From assembly GCF_000455205.1 (NCBI RefSeq), contig NZ_AUWQ01000065.1, positions 1-64,000 of the forward strand: DNA of 64,000 nucleotides, in the 5' to 3' direction. The translations under genes and the position numbers were made by a program. The notes beneath the pieces were generated by a model, which did no database searches, was not told the origin of the DNA, and worked only from the letters and a program-made list of their open reading frames with translations. Source of the DNA: Mycobacterium sp. UM_CSW. Lineage in GTDB: Bacteria > Actinomycetota > Actinomycetes > Mycobacteriales > Mycobacteriaceae. Shown here piece by piece: positions 3,502 through 56,658 of the stretch; positions within the stretch are counted from its first letter, which is position 1, and the number at the start of each line of letters is the position of its first letter.

Positions 3502-3528
3502 ACACCCATACATTATCTGTATAGCTGT
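3502..3528. promoter_or_regulatory. Candidate operator, site 1 (best match)
   Basis: Four triplets at exact 8-bp spacing: ACA, ACA, TGT, TGT, each separated by 5 nt. This is a fully symmetric match to the shared consensus. It lies 40 nt upstream of the SDR/Rieske unit and downstream of the crotonase stop at 3539. Confidence 0.7.
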
Positions 3529-3538
3529 ATAGTCTGCG

Positions 3539-4435
3539 TTACTCGAACCCCCACTCCGCGTAGCGGCGTTCGAGCTCGGCCATCGCCTCTCGGCCGCCGC
3601 GGGTACTGCGTTCCTTCATGAAGTTGAACTCGTCGTCGCGCCATACGAGGTTGCTGAACACCGTGTGGCCCATCGGAACCCAGTCACCGAACTGCGCCAT
3701 GCCGACGGCGTGCCAGAACGCGATCAAGGCGTGCTTTCCCACCATCAGGCCGTCGGCCGAGTGGTGAGCGATCGCGCGGGCGTACCGCAACGCCTCGTCG
3801 CGGAGCCCGTCGGCGGGCACCACGGACGCGGCCACCCCCCACTCGCGCAGTTCGGTTGCGGTCACCCTGCGGCCGGTGATCATCGCCTCGTAGCCGCGGT
3901 TGGGCCCCAGCTTGAGCAGCGCGAGCGGCATGGCGGTGGAGAATCCGGCGAACCCGATGCGCGCCTGAGGGCGGGCAAGGTACATGTCATCGGAGACCAG
4001 CAGAATGTCGGCGGCCAGGGCCAGATTCATCCCGGCGCCCAGCGTGGCGCCCTGGCAGCCGGCGATCACGGTCTTTGGAAACTCCAACCAATTGGTCAGG
4101 TGCCGGTGCAGGCGCCGGGCGTTGCCCAACCGCGCGGTCTGCGGCAATCGTTCCCCCTTGCGCAGTCCCGCCTCTTCCACCGGGAGTCGGCGCACGTCGT
4201 CGCCACTGCAGAAGTCCTTGCCCTCGGCCAGCAACATGACGACCTTGACTTCGTCGTCGTCTTCGGCCCGGTCCAGCCGTTGCTTGAAGAGTCGATGCAT
4301 TCCGGGCGACAGGATGGCGTTGCGCCGTTCTGGCCGGTTGATGGTGATCTGGGCGATGTGCGGTTCGACAACCTCGTAGCCGACCCAGTCCTCATCGACC
4401 TCGAATTCGCCTTCAGCGGCGGCGTCAGTGCCCAT
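3539..4435 (-). CDS. Enoyl-CoA hydratase/isomerase (crotonase) family protein
   Basis: Crotonase-fold enzyme, 298 aa, acting on an acyl-CoA thioester. The oxyanion-hole segments are visible (HRLFKQRL..GKDFCSGDDV and CQGATLGAGMNLALAADI), followed by the usual C-terminal helices. I chose ATG 4435 because AAGGAGGG lies just before it; the open frame runs on to 4489 but that would cover the operator. It is divergent from the SRPBCC gene at 4511, with operator site 2 placed symmetrically about 25 nt from both starts. The precise reaction (hydration, isomerisation, hydrolysis) cannot be told from sequence. Confidence 0.85.
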   Translation of the reverse strand: MGTDAAAEGEFEVDEDWVGYEVVEPHIAQITINRPERRNAILSPGMHRLFKQRLDRAEDDDEVKVVMLLAEGKDFCSGDDVRRLPVEEAGLRKGERLPQTARLGNARRLHRHLTNWLEFPKTVIAGCQGATLGAGMNLALAADILLVSDDMYLARPQARIGFAGFSTAMPLALLKLGPNRGYEAMITGRRVTATELREWGVAASVVPADGLRDEALRYARAIAHHSADGLMVGKHALIAFWHAVGMAQFGDWVPMGHTVFSNLVWRDDEFNFMKERSTRGGREAMAELERRYAEWGFE

Positions 4436-4459
4436 CCGCCCTCCTTCGCGCGTCGCGGT

Positions 4460-4486
4460 ACATAAGTACAGTAGTCGATCAATTGT
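4460..4486. promoter_or_regulatory. Candidate operator, site 2
   Basis: Triplets ACA, ACA, CGA, TGT at 8-bp spacing, between the divergent crotonase (start 4435) and SRPBCC gene (start 4511). It is centred so that each start codon is about 25 nt away. Confidence 0.6.
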
Positions 4487-4510
4487 CACATCTGGTGATA
4501 CGGTCAGCGA

Positions 4511-4942
4511 ATGCCAACATTCACGGTCACCAAGCGCCTCGCGGCGCCACCGGAGGCGGTATGGGCCGTTCTTGCCGACTTCGGCAACGTGGACTGGATC
4601 CCCGGACCCAGCGACGTCAAAGTCGAGGGCGAAGGGCCCGGCATGCGGCGGTTCATCGCCGCGAGCACCGAGAAGCCGGTCATCGAGACCCTCATCTGGA
4701 TTAAGCCCGACGAGCGCGCACTGTCGTATGAGATCACCAACAATCCGATGCCGGTCAGCCGCTTCGTGGCCGTGAACACCGTAACCGGGAGCGCGGATGC
4801 CGCCGGGGAGTCAATCGTGGTCTGGGACATCGACTATGAGCCCATCGGTGACGATGCCGCCGCACGCGATGCCATGGAGTCGGTGTACGGCTTGATGGCG
4901 GGGTGGGTGCAGGACTTCGCGTTAGCCCGCGAACCCAAATAG
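4511..4942 (+). CDS. SRPBCC (START/polyketide-cyclase-like) family protein
   Basis: Small 143-aa protein opening with the typical SRPBCC strand (TVTKRLAAPPEAVWAVLADF) and continuing through alternating strands to a long C-terminal helix. The fold makes a hydrophobic cavity and may bind, cyclise or hydrolyse a pathway intermediate. No catalytic residues are diagnostic. It is expressed away from the crotonase at 3539-4435 from the shared operator region. Its stop is 2 nt from operator site 3, so the amidohydrolase operon downstream has its own promoter. Confidence 0.75.
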   Translation: MPTFTVTKRLAAPPEAVWAVLADFGNVDWIPGPSDVKVEGEGPGMRRFIAASTEKPVIETLIWIKPDERALSYEITNNPMPVSRFVAVNTVTGSADAAGESIVVWDIDYEPIGDDAAARDAMESVYGLMAGWVQDFALAREPK

Positions 4943-4943
4943 A

Positions 4944-4970
4944 ACACTTAGACAGAAAGTGTCTATTAGT
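4944..4970. promoter_or_regulatory. Candidate operator, site 3
   Basis: Triplets ACA, ACA, TGT, AGT at 8-bp spacing. The inner part is also a perfect inverted repeat TAGACA-N5-TGTCTA. It ends 14 nt before the GTG start of the amidohydrolase at 4985. Confidence 0.65.
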
Positions 4971-4984
4971 TTAGGATTATTCAA

Positions 4985-6295
4985 GTGATTGATCCTCTCG
5001 ATCTGGTACTGATCAGCGTCGACGACCACACCGTGGAACCGCCCGACATGTTCGTCGGCCGGGTGCCCAGCCGCTTCGCCGACGACGCGCCGCGCATCGT
5101 AGAGGACGCCGACGGCGTGTGTTTCTGGGTGTACGACGGTCTGCAGCTGCCGAACATCGGGCTCAACGCGGTCGCGGGGCGGCCCAACGACGAATGGGGA
5201 TTCGAGCCGTCGCGGTTCACCGACATGCGGGCCGGGTGCTACGACGTCGACGCACGGGTGAACGACATGGACGCCTCCGGTGTGCTTGCCTCCCTGTGCT
5301 TTCCCTCGTTCCCCACCATCTCGGGCGCGCTGTTCACCTATCGCGGAGACCGCGACGTGTCGGAGGCGATGGTGCGTGCCTACAACGACTGGCACATCGA
5401 GGATTGGTGCGGCCGGCATCCCGACCGGTTCATCCCGATGGGGATCCTGCCGTTGTGGGACCCGGCCCTGGCCGCTGGTGAAGTGCGGCGCCTGGCGGGG
5501 CGGGGCTGTCGCGCGGTGACGGCGCCTCAGCACATCGGCAATTACGGGCAGCCCCCCTGGCAGGATCCGCACTGGGACCCACTGTGGGAGGCGCTGTGCG
5601 AGGAAAACACCGTGGTGAACATTCACATCGGCACGGGCGGCGGGATGCCGGTGCCGTCCGACCTGACCACCTACCTCGCGTACAACGCGATGATCCCCCT
5701 GGACACCCAGCGGTTCACCGCCGATCTGTTGTTCTCCCCGGTGCTAACCAAGTTTCCGTCCATCAAGTTCTCGCTGTCCGAAGGCGGCATCGGCTGGATC
5801 CCATTCCTGTTGGAACGGTTCGAGGACATCTACTCGCGCCAACGGGCGTGGACGGGCGACGACCTCGGCGCCGGGCTGACCCCGACGGACGTCTACCGCC
5901 GCAACTTCATGTCGTGCTTCATCCGCGACCGGGTCGGCATCGAGATGCGGGAGCGCATCGGGGTGGAGACCATCTGCTGGGAGATGGATTACCCGCATTC
6001 GGACAGCAGCTGGCCGGATGCCCCCGAGCAGCTCGCCGCCCAGCTGGAGGGCTGCACGCCCGACGAGGTGGAGGCCATCACCTGGCGTAATGCGGCTCGC
6101 GCCTTCGGCTACACCGGCGTCGAGCGACGCGGCAGGGAAAACTGCACCGTCGCGGCGCTGCGGCGACGGATCGCCGGCCTTGATCTCTCGGCGCCGAAGG
6201 TGGATGCCGGACGCGCACCGAAAGCCGGCGCCACGGCAATCACCTACGGCGACATGAAGATACGGATGGCGTCGATACTTCGCGGTGGGGCGTGA
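4985..6295 (+). CDS. Amidohydrolase family protein (COG2159-type metal hydrolase/decarboxylase)
   Basis: TIM-barrel metal-dependent hydrolase, 436 aa. The N-terminal metal motif is SVDDHTVEPP (about 12-21); NIHIGTGGG, SEGGIGWIPFLLERFE and WEMDYPHSDS supply the later metal and active-site residues. The family includes decarboxylases and ring-opening hydrolases acting on beta-keto or cyclic substrates. It starts at GTG 4985 and heads an operon through 12030 (possibly 13307): two acyl-CoA dehydrogenases, a double CoA transferase, an OB-fold protein and a thiolase-like protein, nearly all with overlapping starts and stops. A second homolog is at 24160-25455. Confidence 0.85.
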   Translation: MIDPLDLVLISVDDHTVEPPDMFVGRVPSRFADDAPRIVEDADGVCFWVYDGLQLPNIGLNAVAGRPNDEWGFEPSRFTDMRAGCYDVDARVNDMDASGVLASLCFPSFPTISGALFTYRGDRDVSEAMVRAYNDWHIEDWCGRHPDRFIPMGILPLWDPALAAGEVRRLAGRGCRAVTAPQHIGNYGQPPWQDPHWDPLWEALCEENTVVNIHIGTGGGMPVPSDLTTYLAYNAMIPLDTQRFTADLLFSPVLTKFPSIKFSLSEGGIGWIPFLLERFEDIYSRQRAWTGDDLGAGLTPTDVYRRNFMSCFIRDRVGIEMRERIGVETICWEMDYPHSDSSWPDAPEQLAAQLEGCTPDEVEAITWRNAARAFGYTGVERRGRENCTVAALRRRIAGLDLSAPKVDAGRAPKAGATAITYGDMKIRMASILRGGA

Positions 6296-7485
6296 CCGAA
6301 CCGGATTACGGGGTCGCCCTCACCGAGGCCGATCGACAATTCCGCGACGAGGTCCGCGCCTTCCTGTCATCGGCACTGACGGACGACGTCCGCGGTTCCG
6401 CGCGCGACGAGGCCGACCGGTTGCAGCGAATGCGCCTGTGGCAGAGTCGGCTTCACGACGCCGGCCTGGCCGCGATCTCCTGGCCCGTGCAGTTCGGCGG
6501 ACGCGCCGCCACCCCCGTGCAGCAACTCGTCTTCAACGCCGAGATGGCCGCAGCGCACGCCCCGGAGCCCATCAACCGCAGTGCCGTCAATCAGCTCGGC
6601 CCCACCATCATTCAGTGGGGCACCGACGAGCAACGCCATCGCTACCTGCCGAAGATCCTTTCGGGCGAAGAAGTCTGGTGTCAGGGCTTCAGCGAGCCCG
6701 ACGCGGGCAGTGATCTCGCCGCTCTGAAGACCAGGGCCGAACTGTGCGACGACGAGTTGGTCATCAACGGCCAGAAGATCTGGACCTCCAAGGCCCAGTA
6801 CGCCGACTGGATCTACATCCTGGCGCGCACCGATCCGGCAGCGGACAAGCATCGAGGGATCAGTTACATCCTCGTGCCCCTGAACACGAGCGGCATCGAG
6901 GTGCGCCCCATCCGCCAGATCACCGGGCAGGCCGAGTTCAACGAGGTGTTCTTCGATTCGGTGCGGGTGCCGCTCGCGAATGTGCTCGGGCCACTGCACG
7001 GCGGTTGGCAGGTGGCCAAATCCACGCTGGGCTACGAGCGCGTCGGGCAGAGCCGCACCCACCGCATCGAACGGCGGCTGGCGATTCTCGTCCGGATGGC
7101 GCAGGAGCAGGGGGCGCTGGGGCGCGAGGGCCGCGATGACGGCTACGTGGCCGATCGTCTCGTGGGGTTCGCCGCGCGAGTGGAGGCGTTGCGTCAAATT
7201 GCGGCGCAGGCAACGGCCGCCGGTGTCCGGGGTGTCAGTCCCGGACCCGAAGCGTCGGTGGCCAAGCTGATGACCTCGGAGGTCGACCAGGCGATGGCCG
7301 ATTTCGGGCTGGAAATCGCCGGCTGCGCGGGAACCCTGGAGCGCGGCTCGGTAGGGGCGACGAAGAATGGCAACGTCGCACAGAGCTACCTGCTGATGCG
7401 GGCCGCAACATTCGGCGCGGGCACATCGGAGATTCAGCGCAACGTGATCGCCGAGAAGCTGTTGGGGTTGCCGCGTGACACCTGA
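6292..7485 (+). CDS. Acyl-CoA dehydrogenase, large-type subunit (FadE)
   Basis: Flavin enzyme introducing a 2,3-double bond into an acyl-CoA, 397 aa. The FAD/substrate segment CQGFSEPDAGSDLAALKTRA and the KIWTSKAQYADW strand are conserved, and the C-terminal GTSEIQRNVIAEKLLGLP is typical. It overlaps the amidohydrolase stop (GTGA) and is overlapped by a second, shorter acyl-CoA dehydrogenase at 7475. Such adjacent pairs in mycobacteria form alpha2beta2 enzymes for bulky side chains (FadE26-FadE27 type), so I infer a heteromeric enzyme. Confidence 0.88.
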   Translation: MTEPDYGVALTEADRQFRDEVRAFLSSALTDDVRGSARDEADRLQRMRLWQSRLHDAGLAAISWPVQFGGRAATPVQQLVFNAEMAAAHAPEPINRSAVNQLGPTIIQWGTDEQRHRYLPKILSGEEVWCQGFSEPDAGSDLAALKTRAELCDDELVINGQKIWTSKAQYADWIYILARTDPAADKHRGISYILVPLNTSGIEVRPIRQITGQAEFNEVFFDSVRVPLANVLGPLHGGWQVAKSTLGYERVGQSRTHRIERRLAILVRMAQEQGALGREGRDDGYVADRLVGFAARVEALRQIAAQATAAGVRGVSPGPEASVAKLMTSEVDQAMADFGLEIAGCAGTLERGSVGATKNGNVAQSYLLMRAATFGAGTSEIQRNVIAEKLLGLPRDT

Positions 7486-8560
7486 CGGCCTGTCATCGTT
7501 GAGCGACATCGCCCAGAGCGCAGAAGAACTGGCCCGGCTGCGCGCGTCGGCCGATGACATCCTGCGAAGGGCTTGGTCGCCTCAGGCGTTTCGGGCTTTG
7601 CTCGACCGCCCGGGCGCGGTGTTCGACCCCAAGCTGTGGCACACCATCACCGAAGCGGGTTGGGCCGACGTCTTGGTGAGCGAGACCGCCGGTGGGGGCG
7701 GGGGTGGCGTTCGCGAACTGTGTGCCCTGGCCGAGGCCGCCGGCGCCGCGTCGGCACCCGTCCCGCTCACCTGCGCGGCGGCGGCGGGCTGGTGTGCGGA
7801 CCGCTGCGCCGACGGCGTCAGCCTGTTGCTGCCCGAGCGCGGTGAGCGCACCGAAGAGGGCGTCTCAGGGCTATGGCCCCTCGTGCCCTACGGCGCGGTC
7901 GCGACCAGGCTGCTGGTCTGCGCGGGCACGGGTGACGCGACGGTTCTGGGCGTGGTCGAACCCAGCGCACCGGGCGTGCTCTGTGAACCGGTGACCCCGC
8001 TCGACCACAACCCCGCGGCACGAATCACGTTGCATAACACGCCCATTCAGGTCATCGAGTCGGGCGAGCGCGCCGGACTTCGCCACCGTGAGGCGGGTTT
8101 GCGGAGTCGCGTTGCTCAGGTAGCCGAACTGGTCGGCATCGCGTCGGCCGCCAACGACGCCGCAACCGCGTACGCGAAGTTGCGCGTCGCTTTCGACCGC
8201 CCGATCGGCGCCTTCCAGGCGATCAAACACCGCCTGGTCGACCAGCGGTGCGCGATCGAAGTTGGGCGTGCGCTCGTCAACCGGGCCGCCGACGCCTGCC
8301 AGCAACAGCATGCCGATGCCGCGGCGCTGGTATCGCTCGCCGCCTACTGGGGCATCGACGCGCTGCGGGCCGTGCCGGAGGGCGCCACCCAGGTATTCGG
8401 CGGCATCGCCTACACCTGGGAACACGACGCGCATATCTACCTGCGCCGCGCGGCGACCGTAACGGCGAACCTGGGCACGCGCGCCTACCACCGCGACGCG
8501 GTCACGCGGTGGCTAACCGCACGCCATCCGGCCGCCGGCGCAGGACGGGGCACCACATGA
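7475..8560 (+). CDS. Acyl-CoA dehydrogenase, small-type subunit (FadE)
   Basis: 361-aa partner of the gene before it. The N-terminal half is diverged and Ala-rich. The C-terminal half keeps FDRPIGAFQAIKHRL and QVFGGIAYTWEHDAHIYLRR, which are characteristic of the second subunit of heteromeric mycobacterial acyl-CoA dehydrogenases. It starts at GTG 7475, 11 nt inside the previous gene, and ends in an ATGA overlap with the CoA transferase at 8557. This tight coupling fits a stoichiometric complex. Confidence 0.85.
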   Translation: MTPDGLSSLSDIAQSAEELARLRASADDILRRAWSPQAFRALLDRPGAVFDPKLWHTITEAGWADVLVSETAGGGGGGVRELCALAEAAGAASAPVPLTCAAAAGWCADRCADGVSLLLPERGERTEEGVSGLWPLVPYGAVATRLLVCAGTGDATVLGVVEPSAPGVLCEPVTPLDHNPAARITLHNTPIQVIESGERAGLRHREAGLRSRVAQVAELVGIASAANDAATAYAKLRVAFDRPIGAFQAIKHRLVDQRCAIEVGRALVNRAADACQQQHADAAALVSLAAYWGIDALRAVPEGATQVFGGIAYTWEHDAHIYLRRAATVTANLGTRAYHRDAVTRWLTARHPAAGAGRGTT

Positions 8561-10695
8561 CCGCCGCCGGCCGCGCGACATTCCTGTCGGGCATCAGGGT
8601 TCTCCAACTGGGCGACGGGATCGCCGGCTCGGCCGCCGTGGCCCTGCTGGCTGACCTCGGAGCCGAGGCCACGAAGGTGGCAGGAGGGGCTGCGCCCGCC
8701 CGCGTGGGACCGGCGATCGCCACTGCGGCCGGTCCCGTCGCGGCGATCGACCTCACCCTCGACCGGAGAAAACGAGTCATCGAATCTCATTATTATTCAA
8801 GGGCATTGATCGACGAACACGACATCGTGATCGTCGACCACGGCACCGCCGCCGTCGCACCACCCGCCGCCGAGAACGCGGTTGTCGTGACGGTCAACCC
8901 GTTCGGCATTGACGGGCCGCGCTCGTCGCACCCCGGCGGCGAGCTCGTCGCGCAGGCCGCCGGCGGCATGCTCGCCACCATCGAGGGGTCGGACGGGGCA
9001 CCGGTCCCGGCGCCCGGTTACGTCGCGCTGAAGACGGCGGGAGCCGTAACCGCGCTCGCGGCATTGCATGGCCTCGATCGGCGCAACGACAGCCACGGTT
9101 CGGTGCTCGTTGACGTGTCGGTGCAGGAGGCGGTCGCGTTCACCGCTGCGCTGCCGGAATGCGCCCACGTGCTGTACGGGTGTCCCGGGCGGGCGGGCAG
9201 TGGCCGTTACCTCGCGCCGTCGGGACTGTTTCCCTGCCGCGACGGTCTGGTCCGCATCACGGCGGTCGAGAATCACCAGTGGCGGGGTTTGCTTGCGGCG
9301 CTGGGCCATCCGGACTGGGCCACCGGTCTCGACGAACGCCAGGCCCGCATCGACCACGCCGATGTGATCAACCAACACGTAACAGCCTGGGCGGCAACGC
9401 ATGACAAGGAAGAGTGCGCGGCAACACTACAAGCCAACGGCGTGCCGTCCACACCGGTGAATGCCGCCAAAGAGATTTTGGCATCACCGCAATTCGCCTT
9501 CCGCGGCACTTTCTCGACGACACAGCTCTGCGGTGTCGAAGTCCCCGTGCTTGAGTCGCCGTGGCTCACCTATGTCGGACAACGGTCGGATCACCGTCGC
9601 ACTGGCCGTCTGAGCGACTTGCGGATAGCCGAACTGACCCACGTCTTAGCCGGGCCGATCGTCGGTGCGCTGCTCGGTGCAATGGGCGCAAAGGTGTTGC
9701 GGCTCGAAGATCCTCAGCGCCTGGACATTTACCGGCGTACTGGTCCCTTCGCCCGGGGTAAGCCCGGCGTCAACCGCGGTGCGTATTTCGCGGTGGCCAA
9801 TCACTCCAAGCAAAGCCTGCTGATCGACCCGGCCCGCGCGGTGGATGACGTCGCCGCGGCGCTGTCCGACGCTGATGTCCTCATCGAAAACGTCGGCAGC
9901 GCGCGACTCGCCAGGCTCAAGGTGGAGCCCTCCGCCGTGGCCGGTTCGGGGAGGCTCGCCCTGCGGGTCTCCGGATTCGGCTCCGAAGGCCCCATGGCCG
10001 GATATCGGGTGTACGCCAACAACGTTCAGGCTTATGGTGGGTTGGCCGGATTGACGCTCGGACCGGATGGAGCTCCGGCACGGCTCGGCACCGTGATCGC
10101 TGACCCGCTGTCCTCGGTCGTGGCCGCCGCGGTGATCGCGGCGTGGGCCGTCGGGCCGGCACGTGACACCGGTGCGGTCATCGATCTCTCCATGGCCGAG
10201 GTCGTCGCGTCCACCGTGGCCGAGTTCGTCGCCGCAGCCGCGGCTGCGGGTAGCGCCGACGCCGGCGATTGCGGGCATCGCGGCGTCTATCGCGCCGCCG
10301 ACGGCCGCTGGGTCGCCATTGAAGTCGTGGACTCCGATGAGTGGAAATGCCTGGCAGAAATCTTTGGAGTATCGAATGATTCGGAACATCCCGCGATCCT
10401 GGAGAAGCTGGCGGGCCTGGTTGCCGCCGCGTCGGCCGACGAGGTGGCCGCGCGCCTGAGCGGGTCGGGTTTGCGCGCCGCGGCGGTGCAGCGGGCAGAG
10501 GACCTGGTTTCGGACCCGCACCTGGCGATTCGCGGATTCTTCCCGGAGATCGCTTACCCGGACCCGGACATCGGTACCGCACGTCTAGTCGGGCTGCCAT
10601 GGCGATTCGTCGGTCACGGCCCCATCCCGCTCATGCCGCCGCCGGCCCTGGGCAACGTGAACGCGCGCGAAGGAGGCATGACCAATGTCGGATGA
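8557..10695 (+). CDS. Tandem CaiB/BaiF (family III) CoA transferase fusion
   Basis: 712 aa, about twice the usual ~400, containing two class III CoA-transferase domains. The first begins GIRVLQLGDGIAGSAAVALLADLGAE; the second begins near residue 350 with LRIAELTHVLAGPIVGALLGAMGAK. Each keeps the Asp region that forms the acyl-enzyme (VLVDVS and AVIDLS). A fused intramolecular dimer is the likely form. It would move CoA between a donor thioester and a pathway acid. The ATG at 8557 overlaps the preceding stop; the longer open frame upstream is spurious. Confidence 0.85.
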   Translation: MTAAGRATFLSGIRVLQLGDGIAGSAAVALLADLGAEATKVAGGAAPARVGPAIATAAGPVAAIDLTLDRRKRVIESHYYSRALIDEHDIVIVDHGTAAVAPPAAENAVVVTVNPFGIDGPRSSHPGGELVAQAAGGMLATIEGSDGAPVPAPGYVALKTAGAVTALAALHGLDRRNDSHGSVLVDVSVQEAVAFTAALPECAHVLYGCPGRAGSGRYLAPSGLFPCRDGLVRITAVENHQWRGLLAALGHPDWATGLDERQARIDHADVINQHVTAWAATHDKEECAATLQANGVPSTPVNAAKEILASPQFAFRGTFSTTQLCGVEVPVLESPWLTYVGQRSDHRRTGRLSDLRIAELTHVLAGPIVGALLGAMGAKVLRLEDPQRLDIYRRTGPFARGKPGVNRGAYFAVANHSKQSLLIDPARAVDDVAAALSDADVLIENVGSARLARLKVEPSAVAGSGRLALRVSGFGSEGPMAGYRVYANNVQAYGGLAGLTLGPDGAPARLGTVIADPLSSVVAAAVIAAWAVGPARDTGAVIDLSMAEVVASTVAEFVAAAAAAGSADAGDCGHRGVYRAADGRWVAIEVVDSDEWKCLAEIFGVSNDSEHPAILEKLAGLVAAASADEVAARLSGSGLRAAAVQRAEDLVSDPHLAIRGFFPEIAYPDPDIGTARLVGLPWRFVGHGPIPLMPPPALGNVNAREGGMTNVG

Positions 10696-10915
10696 TCGCC
10701 GCGCGACTGTGTGGGCGTCGACCTTCGTTCCCGGGAAGTCACCGATCCCCGGCTACGGCCAGGACGGCTACAGCGTCGCCTGGGTCGACACCTCCGACGG
10801 GCGGCTGCAGATCTTGGTGTCCGGGCCGCGTCCGGTGCCCGGCACCGCCGGCCGAGTCGTCGAAAAGACAGTGGGGGACGACACCATCATCCTGTTCGAG
10901 GCGGAATCGGAATGA
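10685..10915 (+). CDS. Small OB-fold (DUF35-type) partner protein
   Basis: 76 aa, with strands matching the OB-fold half of DUF35 proteins (GYSVAWVDTSDGRLQILVSG .. VVEKTVGDDTIILFEA) but no zinc-ribbon cysteines. It overlaps the CoA transferase by 11 nt and the thiolase-like gene by 4 nt. DUF35 proteins next to thiolase-like genes act as binding partners in acyltransferase or retro-aldolase complexes (ChsH2/Ltp2 precedent), so this is probably the minimal accessory subunit of the protein at 10912. Confidence 0.7.
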   Translation: MSDDRRATVWASTFVPGKSPIPGYGQDGYSVAWVDTSDGRLQILVSGPRPVPGTAGRVVEKTVGDDTIILFEAESE

Positions 10916-12030: not shown

Positions 12031-12092
12031 TTGGCGGGCATGTCGATGGGTTGGTCGCGACGCAGATTCGATTACCGGAGTGAGGTAGATCG

Positions 12093-47790: not shown

Positions 47791-47802
47791 CGTCGATGCG
47801 GA

Positions 47803-47829: not shown

Positions 47830-47845
47830 TTACTGCTACGAAACG

Positions 47846-48628: not shown

Positions 48629-48654
48629 GTCGATGAGTTCTGGAATGACACGCA

Positions 48655-50295
48655 ATGGGTGAATCCGCACGAACGTTCAGCTACGACCCGCTGCCCTACG
48701 CGCCCGTCGTCCCGTCGATGCTGGCCGACCTGGTCGCCGCGTACGGAGAGAACGACTTCGTCGTCAGCTCGGCCGGCGGGGGGGCCATCGAGCGGATCAG
48801 CTACGGCCAGGCGGCTATTCGGTCTGCCGAGATGGCGCGGCGGCTGCTCGGAGCCGGGGTCACCAAAGGCGTTCGGGTCGGAATCCTGGCGCCCAATGGA
48901 CCCGACTTTGTGATCGCCTTCCTGGCTGCCACCCGGATCGGCGCGGTCGCGGTGCCCATCAACACCTTCTTTCAGCCGCCGGAGTTGAGGTGGCTGCTTC
49001 GCGACGCCGACATCCACACCCTGCTATCGGTCGACGCGCTGCTCGGCAAGGACATGCTGGCGCGGGTCGCCGATGCTGCGGGTGAGTTTCCGGCCCCGGG
49101 TCCGCCCCTGAATCTCGAGCGACTGCCACAGCTGCGCAACGTTTTCGGGCTCGGCGACACCGAGCGGCCCTGGCCGAGTGTGTGGCCGGAACCTGCGCCC
49201 GAAGCGTTTCTGCGAGCGTGCGAATCCACCGTCCGCCCGTCCGACGACCTGGTCGTCATCTACACATCGGGAAGCACCTCGGACCCTAAGGGCGTCATCC
49301 ACACGCACGGCACCGCGATCACACACTCTCGCTTCGTCGCCACGCAGCACGAGTGGAAACCCGACGACCGGGTGTACATCCCGATGGTGTTCTTCTGGGT
49401 CGCCGGGTTGGTCTTCGGTCTGCTCGGACCGATGCAGACCGGCGCCACCATCATCACCGAGCACAAGTTCGACGCCGGCGACGTGCTGCGCCTGCTCGAA
49501 TCCGAACGGGCCACCTACGCAACGGGATTCCCCCACGTGGGCCGGGCCCTGGCGAATCATCCCGACTACGCGTCCACCGATCTGTCGAGTCTGCGCGCGG
49601 GATACCACCAGGTCCTGCTGCCGCCGGAACTGCGCGCGGCCGATCCGTCGCTGCTGGTTACACAATTGGGCATGACCGAGACGTGCAGTTCGCACACCTG
49701 GTGGCCACCACACGAACCGGTGCCGGAAAGCAAGCGCGGTTCGCTCGGGGTTGCGGCACCCGGCTATCAGCACAAGATCGTCGATGAAACGGGCGTGGAG
49801 CTGCCCAACGGGACGGTAGGGGAAATCTGCGTGCGGGGCACGGCCATGATGCGCGGCATGGTCGGGCGGCAGCGCAGCGACCTGTTCGACGACGACGGCT
49901 GGTATCACACGAAGGACGCCGGATACCTGGACGACGACGGCTTTCTGTTCTTCACCGGACGCACCGACGACATGATCAAGACGTCGGGCGCGAACGTCGC
50001 GCCGGTGGAGGTCGAGGCGGTGATCGGCGGCGTCGATGGCGTCCGGATCGCCTATGTCGTCGGCGTTCCGGACACGGACAAGGGCGCGCTCGTCTGCGCC
50101 GTGGTCGTGCTCAATCAGGGGCGGTGCACATCGCAGGATGAGCTCGCGGCGGCTTGCCGGAAGGAACTGGCCGCGTACAAGGTCCCCAAGCGGTGGGTGA
50201 TCCTCCCCGACGCCGATGGGCTGCCCTACACAACCACGAACAAGATCGACAAGCCCCGGCTGGTGCAGTTACTGAGGTCGGGGGAGCTGGCATGA
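48655..50295 (+). CDS. Acyl-CoA synthetase (AMP-forming, ANL superfamily)
   Basis: 546 aa. IYTSGSTSDPKGVIHTHG is the P-loop, MTETCSSHTWW the substrate segment, GYLDDDGFLFFTGRTDDMIK the hinge, and YTTTNKIDKPRL carries the C-terminal catalytic Lys. It forms an acyl-CoA from a free acid. It overlaps the SnoaL gene at 50292 by 4 nt (ATGA). Confidence 0.88.
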   Translation: MGESARTFSYDPLPYAPVVPSMLADLVAAYGENDFVVSSAGGGAIERISYGQAAIRSAEMARRLLGAGVTKGVRVGILAPNGPDFVIAFLAATRIGAVAVPINTFFQPPELRWLLRDADIHTLLSVDALLGKDMLARVADAAGEFPAPGPPLNLERLPQLRNVFGLGDTERPWPSVWPEPAPEAFLRACESTVRPSDDLVVIYTSGSTSDPKGVIHTHGTAITHSRFVATQHEWKPDDRVYIPMVFFWVAGLVFGLLGPMQTGATIITEHKFDAGDVLRLLESERATYATGFPHVGRALANHPDYASTDLSSLRAGYHQVLLPPELRAADPSLLVTQLGMTETCSSHTWWPPHEPVPESKRGSLGVAAPGYQHKIVDETGVELPNGTVGEICVRGTAMMRGMVGRQRSDLFDDDGWYHTKDAGYLDDDGFLFFTGRTDDMIKTSGANVAPVEVEAVIGGVDGVRIAYVVGVPDTDKGALVCAVVVLNQGRCTSQDELAAACRKELAAYKVPKRWVILPDADGLPYTTTNKIDKPRLVQLLRSGELA

Positions 50296-50933
50296 CCGGG
50301 TTGGAGGCGCGGGTCGCCCGACTGGAGGCCATCGAGGAAATTCGGCAGCTGGCGGCGCGTTACGCGGTGGCGTTGGACATGCGCGACTTCGATTCCCTGG
50401 CAAATCTTTTCGTTGACGACGTCGGTGTGCCGGGCAAGCGCCGTGGGCGCGACGCGATGCGCCAATGGTACGACGCAGAGGTTCGTCCGACGCTACTGGG
50501 CAGCGCGCACGGCGTCCTCGGCCACGTCATCGACGTCCACGACGCCAACACCGCGAGCGGACTTGTCTACTCGCGCAACGACTTGGAAACCGAGACCGCG
50601 TGGTTCATCGAGATGCTGGCCTATCTCGACCGCTACGAACGGCGCGCCGGCCGTTGGTATTTCGCGCGTCGCACCCCGCTGTTCTGGTACCGCAGCGACA
50701 TCACCGACCCGCCGATCGGTCCGCGGAAGGTGCGCTGGCCCGGCGGCCCGAGCCAGGACGGCTCTTTCCACGACGCCTTCCCGTCGTGGGACGCATTCTG
50801 GGCCGCCGACCCGGGACGCTTCGACGCGCCGGTCCCCGCCCCCGCCGCCGTCGGTGACTGGCTGCGCAGTTTGCGCCGGGGGGCTGAGGCTCCGCGGGTG
50901 AGCCAGACTGGACGCGGAACCGCGGGGCCCTGA
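50292..50933 (+). CDS. SnoaL/NTF2-like family protein
   Basis: 213 aa, longer than the usual SnoaL protein because of a ~60-residue Pro/Trp-rich C-terminus. The family part is ARLEAIEEIRQLAARYAVALDMRD through WYFARRTPLFWYRSD. Similar to the 27911 gene. ATG 50292 overlaps the ligase stop; the following FadE starts 1 nt after its stop. Confidence 0.77.
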   Translation: MTGLEARVARLEAIEEIRQLAARYAVALDMRDFDSLANLFVDDVGVPGKRRGRDAMRQWYDAEVRPTLLGSAHGVLGHVIDVHDANTASGLVYSRNDLETETAWFIEMLAYLDRYERRAGRWYFARRTPLFWYRSDITDPPIGPRKVRWPGGPSQDGSFHDAFPSWDAFWAADPGRFDAPVPAPAAVGDWLRSLRRGAEAPRVSQTGRGTAGP

Positions 50934-50934
50934 A

Positions 50935-52062
50935 ATGTCGTACCAAGCAACGAGTTTCGCATTCACCAACGAGCAGGACGAGCTGCGTCGCGTCGTGCGC
51001 TCCTTCCTCGAAAGCAAGGCCGACGAGGCGCAGGTGCGCCGCCACATGGAATCACCGCTGGGGTACGACCCGTTGTTGTGGGCGCAGATGTCCGACGAAC
51101 TGGCCTTAGTGGGGCTCGCAATTCCCGAGGAATTCGGCGGTCAGGGGTACACCTTCGTCGAACTCGGCATCGTCGCCGAGGAGCTGGGACGGGCGCTTGC
51201 TCCCTCCCCGTTCTTCGCGTCGGCGGTGCTGGCGTCCAGCGCGCTGCTTGAGTCGGGCGACTACGATGCCCAGCGACGATTCCTGCCGGGCATCGCGTCC
51301 GGAGCGACGATCGCCAGCCTGGCGGTGACCGAGGAGTCGGGCCGCTGGGAGGCCGGGGCGATCCACACGCGGGCGCGAGAAACGGCCCACGCGTGGGTGC
51401 TGGACGGGGCGAAAACCTACGTCCTCGACGGCTGTAGCGCCGATGTGCTTTTGGTAGCCGCCCAGAGTGACTCCGGATTGTCGCTGTTCGCGGTCGACCG
51501 CTTCGACAACATCGCCCGGCGCGCGCTGTCCACCCTGGACCAGACCCGAAAACAGGCCCGTATCGAATTCACCGCAACGCCGGCGTCGCTCGTCGGTCGT
51601 GAAGGCGGCGCCGTGTCGGTGCTGCGGCGGACCCTCGCGCTCGGCTGTGCCGCGCTGGCCGCCGAACAGGTCGGTGGCGCGCAGCGCTGTCTCGAGATGG
51701 CCGTCGCGTACGCGAAGGCACGCAGGCAGTTCGGCAGGCCCATCGGCTCATTCCAGGCCATCCGCCACAAGTGCGCCGATGTCTTCTTGGACATCGAATG
51801 TGCCCGCGGGGCGGCCTATTACGCGGTGCGGGCCGCGGCCCAACGCTCTGCGGAATTGCCGGCTGTGGCGTCATTGGCCAAGGCGTGCAGTTCCGAGGCG
51901 TTTGCTCGGGCCGCCGCCGCCAACATCCAGATCCACGGCGGCATCGGATTCACCTGGGAACATCCCGCCCATTTGTACTTCAAGCGTGCTCAATCGTCGG
52001 GGCACCTGCTCGGCGACGCCTCCTATCACCGGCGACTGCTCGCCGACGAGATCGGGATCTGA
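50935..52062 (+). CDS. Acyl-CoA dehydrogenase (FadE), small type
   Basis: 375 aa. RRQFGRPIGSFQAIRHKCAD and IQIHGGIGFTWEHPAHLYFKR are hallmarks of the smaller subunit of heteromeric mycobacterial acyl-CoA dehydrogenases. No large subunit is next to it. It closes the unit begun at 47846 and converges on the SDR at 52068. Confidence 0.86.
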   Translation: MSYQATSFAFTNEQDELRRVVRSFLESKADEAQVRRHMESPLGYDPLLWAQMSDELALVGLAIPEEFGGQGYTFVELGIVAEELGRALAPSPFFASAVLASSALLESGDYDAQRRFLPGIASGATIASLAVTEESGRWEAGAIHTRARETAHAWVLDGAKTYVLDGCSADVLLVAAQSDSGLSLFAVDRFDNIARRALSTLDQTRKQARIEFTATPASLVGREGGAVSVLRRTLALGCAALAAEQVGGAQRCLEMAVAYAKARRQFGRPIGSFQAIRHKCADVFLDIECARGAAYYAVRAAAQRSAELPAVASLAKACSSEAFARAAAANIQIHGGIGFTWEHPAHLYFKRAQSSGHLLGDASYHRRLLADEIGI

Positions 52063-52067
52063 GCGGG

Positions 52068-52877
52068 TCAGAAGTCCGTGCCTCCGTCGATGTTGACGGC
52101 AGCGCCGGTCATGAACGCCGCCCTGTCGCTCAGCAGGAAGGCGATCAGCTCGCCCGCCTCCTCGGGACGTCCGCCGCGACCGAGGGCGACGCGCATGTTC
52201 CAGTCCGGGTTGCTCGCCAGGTGCGTATAGATCGCGTCCTGAAGCGCCACGCCATATTGCGCTGCCCGCTGGGCGCGGATGAAGTCGTTCACCTCGGTGT
52301 CGAACAGCCCAGGGCACACGGTGTTCACCCGGATGCCGTCCGGGCCATGCGTTTTGGCGAGAATCTTGGACAACGTCAACACCGCGGCCTTCAGCGCGTT
52401 ATACGGCGGAATGAGGACCTTCGGCGCCCGAACGGAATACGCGGCCGTCGTCACGATGGTTCCGCCCCCATTGCGTTGCAGGTGCGGGATGACCGCGCGG
52501 CAGGAGCGCACGGTCCCCATCAGAATCAATTGGTAGTACCAGTCCCACGACTCGTCGCCGTGTTCGAGGAACGGCCCCTGTTGATTCATCGGTCCGGCGG
52601 TGACGGCCAGGCCGCGCAGCGGTCCCAGGCTTGCTACCGCGCGGTCGACGGCACGGTCCACGCCATCACCGGCGGCGGCGGCGTCGACCGCGATGCCGAC
52701 CGCACCCACCCCGTAGTCCGCAGTCAATCGCTCCGCACGCGCCTGGGCGCGGTCGCCGTCACGAGCGAGCAGCGCCACGTTGGCACCGTTGGCGGCGAGC
52801 TGCTCGGCGGCGGCGAACCCGATGCCGGTCGTCCCGCCAACCAGAACGAAGTTGTGTCCCGCCACACCAAGCTCCAC
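52068..52877 (-). CDS. SDR family oxidoreductase
   Basis: 269 aa. The cofactor loop is VGGTTGIGFAAAE (variant TTGIG), the second motif is the unusual VTAGP instead of NNAG, and YNALK is the catalytic pair. The C-terminus VNIDGGTDF is typical. The GTG start at 52877 follows GAGGG. Divergent from the TetR gene at 53033, with site 12 between them. Confidence 0.84.
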   Translation of the reverse strand: MELGVAGHNFVLVGGTTGIGFAAAEQLAANGANVALLARDGDRAQARAERLTADYGVGAVGIAVDAAAAGDGVDRAVDRAVASLGPLRGLAVTAGPMNQQGPFLEHGDESWDWYYQLILMGTVRSCRAVIPHLQRNGGGTIVTTAAYSVRAPKVLIPPYNALKAAVLTLSKILAKTHGPDGIRVNTVCPGLFDTEVNDFIRAQRAAQYGVALQDAIYTHLASNPDWNMRVALGRGGRPEEAGELIAFLLSDRAAFMTGAAVNIDGGTDF

Positions 52878-52923
52878 GCGCTGCCCTCGTTTCTGGCGTC
52901 ACCGCCGACGACAGCCATACTAA

Positions 52924-52950
52924 ACAGAAGTACGCCAAGTGTTGCAATGA
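52924..52950. promoter_or_regulatory. Candidate operator, site 12
   Basis: Triplets ACA, ACG, TGT, TGA at 8-bp spacing, 46 nt upstream of the SDR (start 52877) and 82 nt upstream of the TetR gene (start 53033). Confidence 0.58.
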
Positions 52951-53004
52951 CCACTTTGGGGCCACCGTCCAGCGGCTTCACGGCCCCCCGACGGAACACA
53001 ATGC

Positions 53005-53014
53005 ACAAATTTGT
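53005..53014. promoter_or_regulatory. Palindrome ACAAATTTGT before a TetR gene
   Basis: Perfect 10-bp palindrome 18 nt upstream of the TetR ATG at 53033. It does not follow the 8-bp triplet spacing of the other sites, so if it is an operator it may serve autoregulation. Confidence 0.35.
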
Positions 53015-53032
53015 CGCGTAGCATAGGGCGGC

Positions 53033-53644
53033 ATGTCGACGAAACCAGCCCCCACCGAACTCGAGTCGGACGGGGAATTCGATCGCCGCGACCAGATCCT
53101 TGAGGCGGCGAACGAATGTTTCACCCAACTCGGCATTCAGCGCACCAGCGTCCAGGACGTCGCGCGAAAGGCCAACGTGTCGCGGGGCACGGTGTACCGG
53201 TACTTCGAAGACCGCAACGTGCTCATCGACGCCGCCATCGAATTCGGCGCGCAGCGGTTCTATCGCGAGGTCGCCTCGGCGATGGCCAAGAAGAACACGC
53301 TGGCGGAGCAGGTCGGCGCGATGGCGGAAACCCACGCCAGGATCCTCCTCGACCATCGGACAAGGAACCGTTTGATGGCCGACGACGCCGAACTGATGCG
53401 GCACATGATCTCCGACGGTGACACGGCGGTCCGGCGTACCACGCAATTTCTCGAACCGTATGTGCGGGCCGCGCGCGAGCGTGGCGAGGTGGGCACCGGT
53501 GTCGACGTTGCTGCTGCGAGCGAATGGCTGGCCCGAATCATCTGGTCGTTTTCTACCGTCAACGAGGCCCAAACGTTCGACATGTCCAAGCCGGACACTG
53601 TCCGGCGCTATGTGGAGGCGTTCGCGATCAATGGGCTCCGCTGA
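53033..53644 (+). CDS. TetR family transcriptional regulator (paralog of 55836-56447)
   Basis: 203 aa. HTH: TSVQDVARKANVSRGTVYRYFEDRNVLI. By hand count about 85% of the last 187 residues are identical to the TetR encoded at 55836, with the HTH recognition helix nearly the same (RMAKVSRGTIYRYF there). Equal length points to a recent duplication. It is flanked by operator sites 12 and 13. Best candidate, with its paralog, for reading the 27-bp sites. Confidence 0.9.
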   Translation: MSTKPAPTELESDGEFDRRDQILEAANECFTQLGIQRTSVQDVARKANVSRGTVYRYFEDRNVLIDAAIEFGAQRFYREVASAMAKKNTLAEQVGAMAETHARILLDHRTRNRLMADDAELMRHMISDGDTAVRRTTQFLEPYVRAARERGEVGTGVDVAAASEWLARIIWSFSTVNEAQTFDMSKPDTVRRYVEAFAINGLR

Positions 53645-53663
53645 CGGACCATGCGGAAGCCGC

Positions 53664-53690
53664 TCAACTGAACAATAGATGTACTATTGT
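53664..53690. promoter_or_regulatory. Candidate operator, site 13
   Basis: Triplets TCA, ACA, TGT, TGT at 8-bp spacing. The core GAACAATAG-N5-CTATTGTTC is a perfect 9-bp inverted repeat, the longest palindrome among the sites. It is 53 nt upstream of the SDR at 53744. Confidence 0.7.
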
Positions 53691-53743
53691 TCTCCATTGT
53701 CGGACGGCTTTGAACGCGTGGATTATCGATCGGTGGTCAGCAC

Positions 53744-54511
53744 ATGGGCGAACGGACGTTGGCCGGCAAGCGGGTCGTGGTGATCGGGGCATCGGCCGGG
53801 ATCGGGCGGGCATTCGCGGTGCGTGCCGGCAAGGAGGGTGCCGACCTGCTCATCGCGGCGCGCCGTCAAGACCGTCTGGACGAGGTTGCCGCGGAAGCCG
53901 GGTGCTCCGCCGCCATCAGCGTGGATGTGCGTAACGCTGACGACTGCGTGCGGCTTGCCGATATGGCCCGCCGGACCGTTGGCGAAATCGACCTGCTGTT
54001 CATCTCGGTGGGTTACGCGCCGCTGAGAATGTTCGCCGACACCTCCGTCGACGATTGGATGGACGTGATGCGGACGAATGTGGTTGGTGTACATAACGTC
54101 GTCCGGTCCTGTCTGCCAGTTCTCGCTCCCGCGGCGATCGTCAGCGCCATGTCCTCCGAGACCGTCGGACAACCACGAGCCGCGCTGGGCGCCTATTCCT
54201 CCAGTAAGGCCGCGCTGTCGGAAAGCCTCAATGCTTGGCGCACAGAGCATCCCGGGTTTCGCTACTGCTGTGTCACCGTGGGCGGCACCGTTCCGACCGA
54301 GTTCACCGCCGCATTCGACCCCGAACTGCTCGGCACGGTCGTTCAGGATTGGGTCGCGCGCGGCCTCCTGCAGGAGACATTGATGTCGCCGGACGACGTG
54401 GCCGACATGCTGGCAGGAACGTTCGCCAGCGCAATGAATTTTCCCACGGTCGGCCTCGAGCAGCTTGTCATTCGTCCACCGTCACCACCCCGTCGTGGGC
54501 TGACGGTATGA
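53744..54511 (+). CDS. SDR family oxidoreductase
   Basis: 255 aa. IGASAGIGRAFAV is the cofactor loop and YSSSKAALSES the catalytic pair. The usual NNAG is ISVGYAP, a diverged second motif. The C-terminal third is not the typical IDGG end, so this is an atypical SDR. It overlaps or lies 20 nt before the DUF427/TesB gene and follows site 13. Confidence 0.82.
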   Translation: MGERTLAGKRVVVIGASAGIGRAFAVRAGKEGADLLIAARRQDRLDEVAAEAGCSAAISVDVRNADDCVRLADMARRTVGEIDLLFISVGYAPLRMFADTSVDDWMDVMRTNVVGVHNVVRSCLPVLAPAAIVSAMSSETVGQPRAALGAYSSSKAALSESLNAWRTEHPGFRYCCVTVGGTVPTEFTAAFDPELLGTVVQDWVARGLLQETLMSPDDVADMLAGTFASAMNFPTVGLEQLVIRPPSPPRRGLTV

Positions 54512-54531
54512 GGCCGGATGAAAGGGCAGTG

Positions 54532-55812
54532 ATGACAACACAAGTCGAATCGGCGTGGCCCGATTACCCCGATTACCGCATCGACGCGACCCTGTGCCCA
54601 TATCGGGGCGAGGTGTGGTTCGGTGACGTGCTCGTCGCCCAGAGCGACCGGTGTCTCGTGGTGACCGAGACCGACCACGAGGACCGCTTGTACTTTCCCG
54701 AGTCCGCGGTGCGGTGGCAGCTGTTCCGCCCGTCGGATCACAGCAGCGTGTGCCCGTTCAAGGGTCGGGCCAGTTATTGGAGCCTTGACGGGGCAGGTTC
54801 TGGCGTTGAAAACGTGGTGTGGACCTACCGCACCCCGCTGCCAGAGGTCGCGGCGATCGCGGGACACGTCTCGTTCTACGGCGACGCGCTACGTGTAGTC
54901 GTCGTCGAAGTCTGGCCGGACGGCTCAGAGGTTGCCGTGAGATTCCCGCTGTGGGGAGACGCCGACGAACTGTCGAGGATTATCGACGTCCAGGAGGTGG
55001 CCGATAACCGGTTCATCGGGCCCGCACATGGGCCGACTCATCGCAATGTCGTCGAGGGCGGCCAGCTGCTCGGGGAGGCGATCGTGGCCGCGTCAAAAGC
55101 GCTTCCAGGACAGAGAGTCACGTCGGCATCGATGATCTTCGCCAAAGCGGCCTCGTTCGACGCGCCCGTAGACCTGTCCGTCGACGTGCTTCGCCGGGGT
55201 AGATCGTTCTCGACGGCCGAAATTCGCATCAGTCAGCGGGGCGTATTGCGCAGCGCAGGTGTGGTGCTTGCAGCCTCCGGAGCGGCCGACGTGATGCGGC
55301 ACGGCGAGCCGATGCCGGACGTTCCGGGACCCGAGTCGGCGGTGCCGTTTGCGGGCTTCGGTATGACGGGCCGCGAGATTCGGGTCGTGGATGGTGCGTA
55401 CGACCCGGATCCCGATCGGGTGGGCCCGCCGATCATCAACGCGTGGGTGCGATTCCGCGATGCGCCGCCGACCCCCTACCTGAACGCCGCGTTGCTGGCC
55501 CAGTCGACGACGCATTGGACGATCGCCGCGGGCATGTTGCCGCATCCCGGCCTGGGTGAGGCGCGCGCGCATGCCACCTTATCGACCGGGATCATGAAGG
55601 CCACCATCGCGTTTCACGACGACGTCGACGTCGCGGACTGGCTGCTCTACACCAATCACGCGTTCTGGTCAGGACGCGGGCTCGTGCAGGGCGACGGCCG
55701 AGTCTTCACCCGAGATGGACGGCTCGCCGCGTCCTACACCATCCAGGCGATGGTGCGTGAGTTCTCGACGGACCCCGCGGCGATGGGCCGCGACAGCCGG
55801 ACGGCGATGTAA
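54532..55812 (+). CDS. DUF427 - TesB-like acyl-CoA thioesterase fusion
   Basis: 426 aa. Residues ~15-115 form a DUF427 domain (CPYRGEVWFGDVLVAQSDRC, RLYFPESAVRW, CPFKGRASYWSL). The rest is a double-hotdog thioesterase II/acyl-CoA thioesterase module (VEGGQLLGEAIVAASKALPG; ATLSTGIMKATIAFHDDVDV ending DWLLYTNHAFWSGRG). It would release a free acid from CoA. ATG 54532 has AAGGG 5 nt upstream; ATG 54508, overlapping the SDR stop, is the alternative. Confidence 0.8.
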   Translation: MTTQVESAWPDYPDYRIDATLCPYRGEVWFGDVLVAQSDRCLVVTETDHEDRLYFPESAVRWQLFRPSDHSSVCPFKGRASYWSLDGAGSGVENVVWTYRTPLPEVAAIAGHVSFYGDALRVVVVEVWPDGSEVAVRFPLWGDADELSRIIDVQEVADNRFIGPAHGPTHRNVVEGGQLLGEAIVAASKALPGQRVTSASMIFAKAASFDAPVDLSVDVLRRGRSFSTAEIRISQRGVLRSAGVVLAASGAADVMRHGEPMPDVPGPESAVPFAGFGMTGREIRVVDGAYDPDPDRVGPPIINAWVRFRDAPPTPYLNAALLAQSTTHWTIAAGMLPHPGLGEARAHATLSTGIMKATIAFHDDVDVADWLLYTNHAFWSGRGLVQGDGRVFTRDGRLAASYTIQAMVREFSTDPAAMGRDSRTAM

Positions 55813-55835
55813 GGCCGTCCCGTCATTTCAATGCG

Positions 55836-56447
55836 TCAGCGCAGACCGTTGATGGCGAATTTTTCGACATAGCGGCGGACGGTGGCCGGTTTGCTCATAT
55901 CAAAGGTCAGACCCTGATTGACGGTCGAGAACGAATAGATGATGCGGGCCAGCCATTCGCTACCTGCCGTCACGTCGACCCCGGCGCCGACCTCGCCGCG
56001 TTTCTGGGCATCGCGAACGTAGGGCTCCAGAAACTTCGTGGTGCGCCGGACGGCGGCGTCGCCGTCGGCCACCATATGACGCATCAACTCCGCGTCGTCG
56101 GCCATCAGCCGGTTGCGAGTCCGGTGGTCGAGCAGGATCTTCGCGTGCGTCTCGGCCATCGCGCCCAGTTGCTCGGCCAAAGTCGATTTCTTGGCCATCG
56201 CCGTGGCGACTTCGCGGTAGAAGCGTTGGGCGCCATGCTCGATCGCGGCCTCGATCAGGACATCGCGGTCGACGAAGTACCGGTAGATGGTGCCCCGGGA
56301 GACCTTGGCCATGCGCGCCACGTCCTGCACACTGGTGCGCTGGATGCCCAGCTGCGTGAAGCACTCGTTTGCCGCGTCAAGAATTTGGTCACGGCGGTCA
56401 GCCTCGGCGGCGACCTCCGCCTCGCCGGCGACTGGGTCGGTCAACAT
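55836..56447 (-). CDS. TetR family transcriptional regulator (paralog of 53033-53644)
   Basis: 203 aa, same length as and about 85% identical to the TetR at 53033. HTH: TSVQDVARMAKVSRGTIYRYF. ATG 56447 with AGGAG 4 nt upstream matches the paralog's N-terminus; the open frame to 56624 is spurious. It is divergent from the SDR operon at 56681, whose operator (site 14) lies 185 nt upstream of this start. Confidence 0.9.
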   Translation of the reverse strand: MLTDPVAGEAEVAAEADRRDQILDAANECFTQLGIQRTSVQDVARMAKVSRGTIYRYFVDRDVLIEAAIEHGAQRFYREVATAMAKKSTLAEQLGAMAETHAKILLDHRTRNRLMADDAELMRHMVADGDAAVRRTTKFLEPYVRDAQKRGEVGAGVDVTAGSEWLARIIYSFSTVNQGLTFDMSKPATVRRYVEKFAINGLR

Positions 56448-56631
56448 CACACTCCTATGCGCCCAACGGCAGTGATCCCGGTTATTCATGGTACGCGACG
56501 TGCGGCGTTGCGCCCGGGAGCCGGACCGGTCCGCGAGGCCGGCTGCACCCCTGCGGATGCGCGTCTTCGTCGCGGCAGGAGGGCTCGCGAGGGGTGCACT
56601 AGGCACCGCCGCGGCGATCTGCAATTATTGG

Positions 56632-56658
56632 ATAATTGAACGTTGGATGTTCCATTGT
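56632..56658. promoter_or_regulatory. Candidate operator, site 14
   Basis: Triplets ATA, ACG, TGT, TGT at 8-bp spacing, ending 22 nt before the SDR start at 56681. It aligns with site 13 over most of its central 23 bp. Confidence 0.58.

Follow-up and report, generated by a model that had tools for sequence, protein, structure and literature searches.

A probable four-half-site 27-bp operator repeated through a 59-kb catabolic block of Mycobacterium sp. UM_CSW, with a candidate TetR-family repressor

The DNA considered here (the window) is a stretch of 64,000 nucleotides of Mycobacterium sp. UM_CSW, positions 1 to 64,000 of contig NZ_AUWQ01000065.1, most of which is taken up by a 59-kb block of catabolic genes. 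According to Pfam, the block holds four cytochrome P450s, six acyl-CoA dehydrogenase open reading frames (ORFs), seven enoyl-CoA hydratase (ECH) ORFs, four type III CoA-transferase ORFs, two CoA ligases, seven short-chain dehydrogenases/reductases (SDRs), two thiolase-fold proteins, two ChsH2-type OB-fold proteins, one Rieske oxygenase, two amidohydrolases, a luciferase-like (LLM) monooxygenase and an E1 dehydrogenase with a lipoyl protein, a content that suggests oxidative, CoA-dependent catabolism. Three TetR genes lie among them, and a 27-bp sequence recurs at 15 places, at operon heads and often within divergent promoters (Table 1). We ask here whether these 15 sites are the operators of one regulon and which protein reads them.

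A preliminary description of this DNA had listed the 15 27-mers as four degenerate triplets at a 5/5/5 spacing, and a direct check of the letters found all 15 as described. A symmetric 27-bp matrix built from them gives the sites scores of 19.8–33.4 bits (16.5–31.4 bits on leave-one-out scoring), and the top 15 places in the window by this matrix are the 15 sites. The next-ranked places (up to 12.0 bits) are these sites read in a shifted register, the best place free of site overlap scores 7.5 bits, and no further place of at least 12 bits is found in the whole window, hence none at 1–1151 or above 56658. In 1000 dinucleotide shuffles of the local 120 bp the leave-one-out score was never reached for 13 of the 15 sites and was reached once each for those at 20384 and 56632. 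In 60 shuffles of the whole window the top score with the full matrix was 18.4 bits, which is below all 15 full-matrix scores and exceeds the leave-one-out scores of 20384 (18.3) and 52924 (16.5); these two weak sites are supported mainly by conservation. With the 5/5/5 spacing 13 of the 15 promoters match with at most two mismatches, while every other spacing tested gives at most two of 15.

A scan of the whole genome (6.39 Mb in 186 contigs) that allowed no more than one mismatch finds the pattern at 12 places, seven of them within the window, against two places for a reversed control pattern. A profile built from the sites of this genome itself (R1) gives 18 rows at E values up to 10, namely 17 in the window and one in a second contig, C22; one site may give a row on each strand, and the window rows cover 13 of the 15 sites, those at 45541 and 52924 being missed. 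Large runs of R1 score only part of the candidates, so that weak sites are lost.

The sites had also been described as all intergenic and as present at every operon head. The first statement depends on the choice of start codon: with the starts adopted here, the sites at 4460, 17402, 24098 and 32328 overlap the first codons of a gene, and with longest-ORF starts those at 17470, 39128 and 45541 additionally fall within an ORF. The second is nearly right, but several possible heads after gaps of more than 40 nt have no site, namely those before 12093 (62 nt), 14808 on the minus strand (147 nt), 40532 (57 nt) and 59151 (49 nt). A further site-less gap precedes 50413 (117 nt), where the ORF is doubtful, and another at 26900 (66 nt) rests on a gene end set in this analysis. 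The gap of 191 nt at 18738–18930 looks coding, the CoA-transferase frame being open from about 18741, upstream of the called start.

Table 1. Coordinates in the window of the catabolic block, the TetR genes and the 15 operator sites
Feature	Position	Strand	Adjoining genes or description	Evidence
Catabolic block	1152..60020		59 kb	Pfam content, conservation
TetR	53033..53644	+	proposed reader	TetR_N; co-occurrence with sites
TetR	55836..56447	-	second paralogue, 81% identical to the first; longest ORF to 56624	TetR_N
TetR	46407..47051	+	third TetR, MftR-like; inside the block	
Operator 1	3502..3528		upstream of SDR 2551-3462 and Rieske 1152-2537 (both -)	letters, matrix; kept in 8/8 other genomes
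Operator 2	4460..4486		at ECH 3539-4489 (-) and SRPBCC 4511-4942 (+)	letters, matrix, orthologue conservation
Operator 3	4944..4970		before amidohydrolase 4985 (+) and the genes behind it	letters, matrix; 6/8 other genomes
Operator 4	17402..17428		at P450 16188-17405 (-)	letters, matrix, orthologue conservation
Operator 5	17470..17496		before CoA-transferase 17512-18738 (+)	letters, matrix, orthologue conservation
Operator 6	20384..20410		before P450 20430 (+) and two acyl-CoA dehydrogenases	letters, matrix; 7/8 other genomes
Operator 7	24098..24124		at amidohydrolase 24121-25455 (+)	letters, matrix, orthologue conservation
Operator 8	29344..29370		between SDR 28465-29280 (-) and mycofactocin-type SDR 29378-30292 (+)	letters, matrix, NCBIfam, conservation
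Operator 9	32328..32354		between P450 31108-32331 (-) and ECH 32406 (+)	letters, matrix, conservation
Operator 10	39128..39154		before E1 dehydrogenase/lipoyl/ECH genes (34426 to ~39069, -) and 39158 (+)	letters, matrix, conservation
Operator 11	45541..45567		between LLM monooxygenase (start taken ~45491, -) and 45583 (+)	letters, matrix, conservation; missed by R1
Operator 12	47803..47829		before ECH 47846 (+) and CoA ligase 48655	letters, matrix, conservation
Operator 13	52924..52950		between SDR 52068-52877 (-) and TetR gene 53033 (+)	weakest of the 15, leave-one-out 16.5 bits; missed by R1
Operator 14	53664..53690		before SDR 53744 (+)	letters, matrix, conservation
Operator 15	56632..56658		between TetR 55836-56447 (-) and SDR 56675 (+)	letters, matrix, conservation

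Conservation was followed at orthologues (at least 50% identity) of the site-flanking genes in fetched stretches of eight other genomes and in the C22 locus. In 159 of the 169 cases a match of at least 12 bits lies between −40 and 350 nt; the cases are not independent, since a site shared by two genes counts twice and the TetR paralogues map to one gene in single-copy genomes. Some genes that have no site in the window have one in certain relatives, for example the CoA-transferase 14956 (in three), the ECH 35181 (in four) and the acyl-CoA dehydrogenase 21626 (in three); these are probably changed operon heads.

The TetR proteins 53033 and 55836 both contain PF00440 (TetR_N; 3.9e-14 and 3.1e-14) and belong to a subfamily whose full-length matches have 69–100% identity inside it and at most 39% outside; the helix-turn-helix region is nearly invariant in 27 aligned homologues (25 of 43 loci and the window pair). 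The occurrence of the sites follows that of this TetR. In 60 genomes of the same genus, scanned at E values up to 1, the nine with the TetR have 6–20 R1 rows each. Of 248 genomes of the genus scanned at E values up to 0.5, all 35 with the TetR have R1 rows (2–17), as do four of the 213 without it (Fisher 1.7e-38, uncorrected for shared descent and with a profile built from UM_CSW sites). Outside the genus, a Williamsia genome has the TetR and seven distinct sites, six of them on the TetR contig, and no site was found in nine TetR-less genomes of the family picked from 59 and scanned. Each of 43 TetR loci (some sharing a genome, some in genomes already counted) has at least one site of at least 23 bits. 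Among the named carriers are M. colombiense, M. scrofulaceum, M. intermedium, M. gordonae, M. asiaticum, M. shimoidei, M. iranicum, M. novocastrense, M. aurum, M. nonchromogenicus, M. tilburgii and Williamsia. In G006, G030 and G031, which have only one copy of the gene, there are 16, 19 and 16 matches, respectively, and one TetR protein therefore suffices. In two loci (L075:6150-6758 and L055:2323-2931) the TetR gene looks like a join of the two paralogues, with the start of one and the end of the other; contigs end inside TetR copies there, and gene conversion or assembly collapse may be the cause.

The same genome contains a second, smaller locus. Contig C22 (36897–79545) has two more TetR copies (75% and 69% identical) and eight operator-like matches of 14.6–28.2 bits, seven of them of at least 20 bits, which adjoin 73–87% identical paralogues of window genes: two P450s, a Rieske protein, two ECHs, a thioesterase and the E1 and lipoyl genes. 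The P450/ECH pair of operator 9 recurs there together with its site, and the paralogues are interspersed with unrelated genes. A similar second locus, with one TetR and four sites, is present in genome G063. The preliminary description had proposed a genome scan, with enrichment in this block only as the expected outcome; the sites are enriched in the block as expected, but not only there, given the TetR-bearing set in C22.

For the architecture of the operator we used 241 distinct sites, 142 from nine genomes (at least 15 bits) and the rest from 43 TetR loci (at least 18 bits), with C35 left out; the C35 site sits in a palindrome beside another TetR. Both arms contain a TGAACA-like hexamer twice in direct orientation with a pitch of 8 bp, the two left triplets being the ends of two such hexamers, and the column profile has a correlation of 0.89 at lag 8 and of at most 0.54 at lags 5–7 and 9–11. 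The hexamer is loose: at least four of six positions match in all four half-sites at 39 of the 241 sites, and at least three at 202. Correlations between triplet mismatches were not used because selecting sites by total score itself creates such correlations. The site beside the TetR's own gene is often weak (52924 in the window; 12.7 bits in G006 and 15.7 bits in G007), yet it scores 31.1 bits in G030; through operator 13 the TetR 53033 may regulate its own gene.

The operator is thus a 27-bp core of four hexamers at 8-bp pitch, with the length and half-sites of a dimer-of-dimers operator (about 22 bp or more). Such operators span 28 bp for QacR, 32 bp for CgmR, 31 bp for MS6564 and 22 bp for CprB, whereas TetR proteins that bind as a single dimer have operators of 15–17 bp (PMC4150764). 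The 27-bp operator fits the class of QacR and CprB (22–32 bp) better than that of 15–17 bp, the likeness being one of length (PMC4150764). A mycobacterial parallel is MAB_4384, a TetR of M. abscessus with a 27-bp operator in which degenerate inverted repeats of 13 nt flank a 1-nt spacer; the outline is the same, as compared by description rather than by letters, but MAB_4384 controls an efflux pump, unlike the regulon of the window (PMC5895659). Binding by two dimers per operator is plausible by analogy. If the inner hexamers formed one dimer site, their centres would be 11 bp apart; a QacR-type arrangement would place two dimers on opposite sides of the DNA.

Taken together, the genome scan, the conservation at orthologues and the co-occurrence with the TetR uphold the earlier proposal of one shared operator and one large regulon concentrated in the block. 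We consider it very probable, judging from the sequence comparisons, that the 15 sites are the operators of one TetR repressor (53033 with its paralogue 55836) that holds most of the 59-kb block off. From operators of two direct and two inverted hexamers near operon starts, the bound repressor would prevent transcription; on its release by a pathway substrate or a CoA intermediate, the operons would be opened in concert, and the TetR genes with them.

Several observations weigh against this reading. Ten of the 169 orthologues have no site, among them those of the amidohydrolase 4985 in G030 and G031 and of the P450 20430 in G063. A TetR and sites inherited as one island would also give the co-occurrence. 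Four of the 51 TetR-less genomes in the 60-genome set have one R1 row each (the other 47 have none), and the four TetR-less genomes of 213 that carry one site each are not the same four. Six of seven unrelated loci from the homologue search give matches of 15.1–17.4 bits and none reaches 18 bits; matches near 15 bits are therefore unreliable. Direct binding, repression rather than activation, promoter blocking, two dimers per operator and the inducer are all things that we infer. Finally, 33 of the 35 genomes with the 53033-type TetR also contain the third TetR, 46407. The two of the 35 that lack 46407, G113 (M. tilburgii) and G260 (M. asiaticum), keep few sites, one in G113 and two, beside P450 genes, in G260.

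Other TetR proteins may share this operator form. One site of this form each occurs at L140:1501-1531 and L144:1501-1530, in two genomes without the 53033-type TetR (G180 and G087); that of G180 adjoins a TetR of 24% identity and that of G087 has perfect 12-bp arms, and the same operator class is perhaps used here by other TetRs. Homologues in Acetobacter and Komagataeibacter (27–28% identity) have a match of 15.1–17.4 bits just upstream in four of five loci, but the letters are unconvincing and these were dropped.

The third TetR would itself be the reader, alone or together with the pair, in the best of the alternatives. Its gene is part of the block, placed behind operator 11, and usually accompanies the other TetR, as given above, but G113 and G260 retain the other TetR and sites in its absence, and C22 combines its eight matches with two copies of the other TetR, the protein there nearest to 46407 being only 26% identical. 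In G113, with a genome of 3.2 Mb, the TetR is accompanied by a partial thioesterase gene and one strong site (38.2 bits; L136:8946) about 1.2 kb from the TetR gene, and no further window gene was matched within the 20 kb fetched. Although these are two genomes with few sites, they point to the 53033/55836 pair as the reader. The 46407 protein scores below the cut-off of NCBIfam TIGR03968 (MftR; 97.4 versus 224.9 bits). We regard this alternative as improbable, and among the three TetR candidates named in the preliminary description it is the pair, and not 46407, that the comparisons favour. Marginally less probable still is a regulator encoded elsewhere, with the TetR pair as a regulated neighbour only. 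It is a reading that the indirect case for binding by the pair allows, but such a regulator must share the patchy distribution of the TetR (35 of 248 genomes), including G113, G260 and Williamsia; no genome-wide search for further co-distributed regulators was made.

A role of the palindromes as RNA hairpins of 5′ leaders is very unlikely: the sites are near start codons and have an inner inverted repeat, but one site serves both genes of divergent pairs, and in the 241 sites complementary pairs at the positions between the triplets have frequencies of 0.25–0.39 against 0.25–0.41 expected, with two positions below expectation. Chance matches in AT-richer promoters, an earlier worry in view of the degenerate triplets and of the 47–62% GC in the 120 bp around the sites (67% for the window), can be dismissed for the set on the strength of the local shuffles, the spacing grid, the whole-genome counts and the conservation.

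The pathway under the control of the proposed TetR repressor may concern terpenoids, although this is a lead only. For both amidohydrolases the best PDB match is a chain named DitZ, which from its name we take to belong to a dit pathway (337 and 271 bits; E values of 1.3e-99 and 2.4e-79), with PtmU3 next. Relatives of the first amidohydrolase are found on 27 plasmid records of several genera (36–43% identity in the 15 of 27 shown), and the DitZ match is therefore unspecific. By gene type the block resembles the proteobacterial dit clusters for diterpene resin acids, large clusters that combine P450 and sterol-carrier-like genes with a ring-hydroxylating oxygenase (PMC13063091, PMC10710418); beyond gene types the likeness consists of the matches to the DitZ-named PDB chain only. 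Use of dehydroabietic and isopimaric acid by Mycobacterium isolates has been recorded, in a source whose passages on them name no mycobacterial genes for this use (PMC6891630). For the Rieske oxygenase, which has no identified partner subunit, the PDB matches did not single out a substrate, and the same holds for one thiolase and for two of the four P450s. Among the NCBIfam matches listed for 20 proteins only two are above cut-off, SDR 29378 as a mycofactocin-coupled SDR (339 versus 300 bits) and LLM 60426, which is outside the block. An ORF with HAMP and adenylate/guanylate cyclase domains at 25477–27900 lies inside the block and is matched in only two of eight relatives (62–74%); its longest form overlaps the SMP-30 gene in a different frame. 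A plasmid origin was considered and rejected, as 72,556 plasmid records gave no near DNA match for window positions 20000–44000 and no TetR match at 1e-15.

The operator was compared with the KstR2 motif and with a KstR pattern. Neither pattern matches at any of the 15 sites, which confirms that the sites are unlike both. The KstR2 motif is not enriched in the window (one match at one mismatch, 0.55 expected), and the KstR pattern has 10 matches versus 5.5 expected (five of 100 shuffles reach 10), none of which overlaps a site. KstR2 is absent among the best 60 of 123 PDB matches of 53033, no orthology test aimed at KstR2 having been made, and KstR is a weak PDB match of 55836 (2.5e-5). KstR2 is a TetR-type repressor with a 14-bp AnCAAGnnCTTGnT motif at three promoters and 15 genes (PMC3068626). 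The window shares with its regulon a local TetR-type gene and a palindromic operator in the divergent promoters of a catabolic block, that of the regulator included, but has 15 sites of 27 bp with four half-sites in place of a 14-bp motif at three promoters (PMC3068626). By analogy the regulon would work like that of KstR2, with a different operator motif and operator number. Motifs of 30 conserved divergent TetRs, named by M. tuberculosis genes, are available from a mycobacterial TetR survey (PMC4482099). We found no description of the present regulon in a literature search judged on titles and the starts of abstracts, with most subscription papers outside its reach. A wider proposal, that this is an undescribed mycobacterial master repressor, duplicated in some genomes, which controls the catabolism of polycyclic isoprenoids (of the terpenoid or resin-acid type) through 15–19 four-half-site operators of a class common to distant TetRs, is speculative and in our view rather doubtful as a whole.

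With the operators and their candidate regulator, some 50 catabolic ORFs become a single defined regulon with a testable operator. KstR and KstR2 gave such a definition for the cholesterol genes. If the TetR pair does hold the block off, loss of one small gene (or of more where it is duplicated) would switch the pathway on and would offer a direct route to its substrate.

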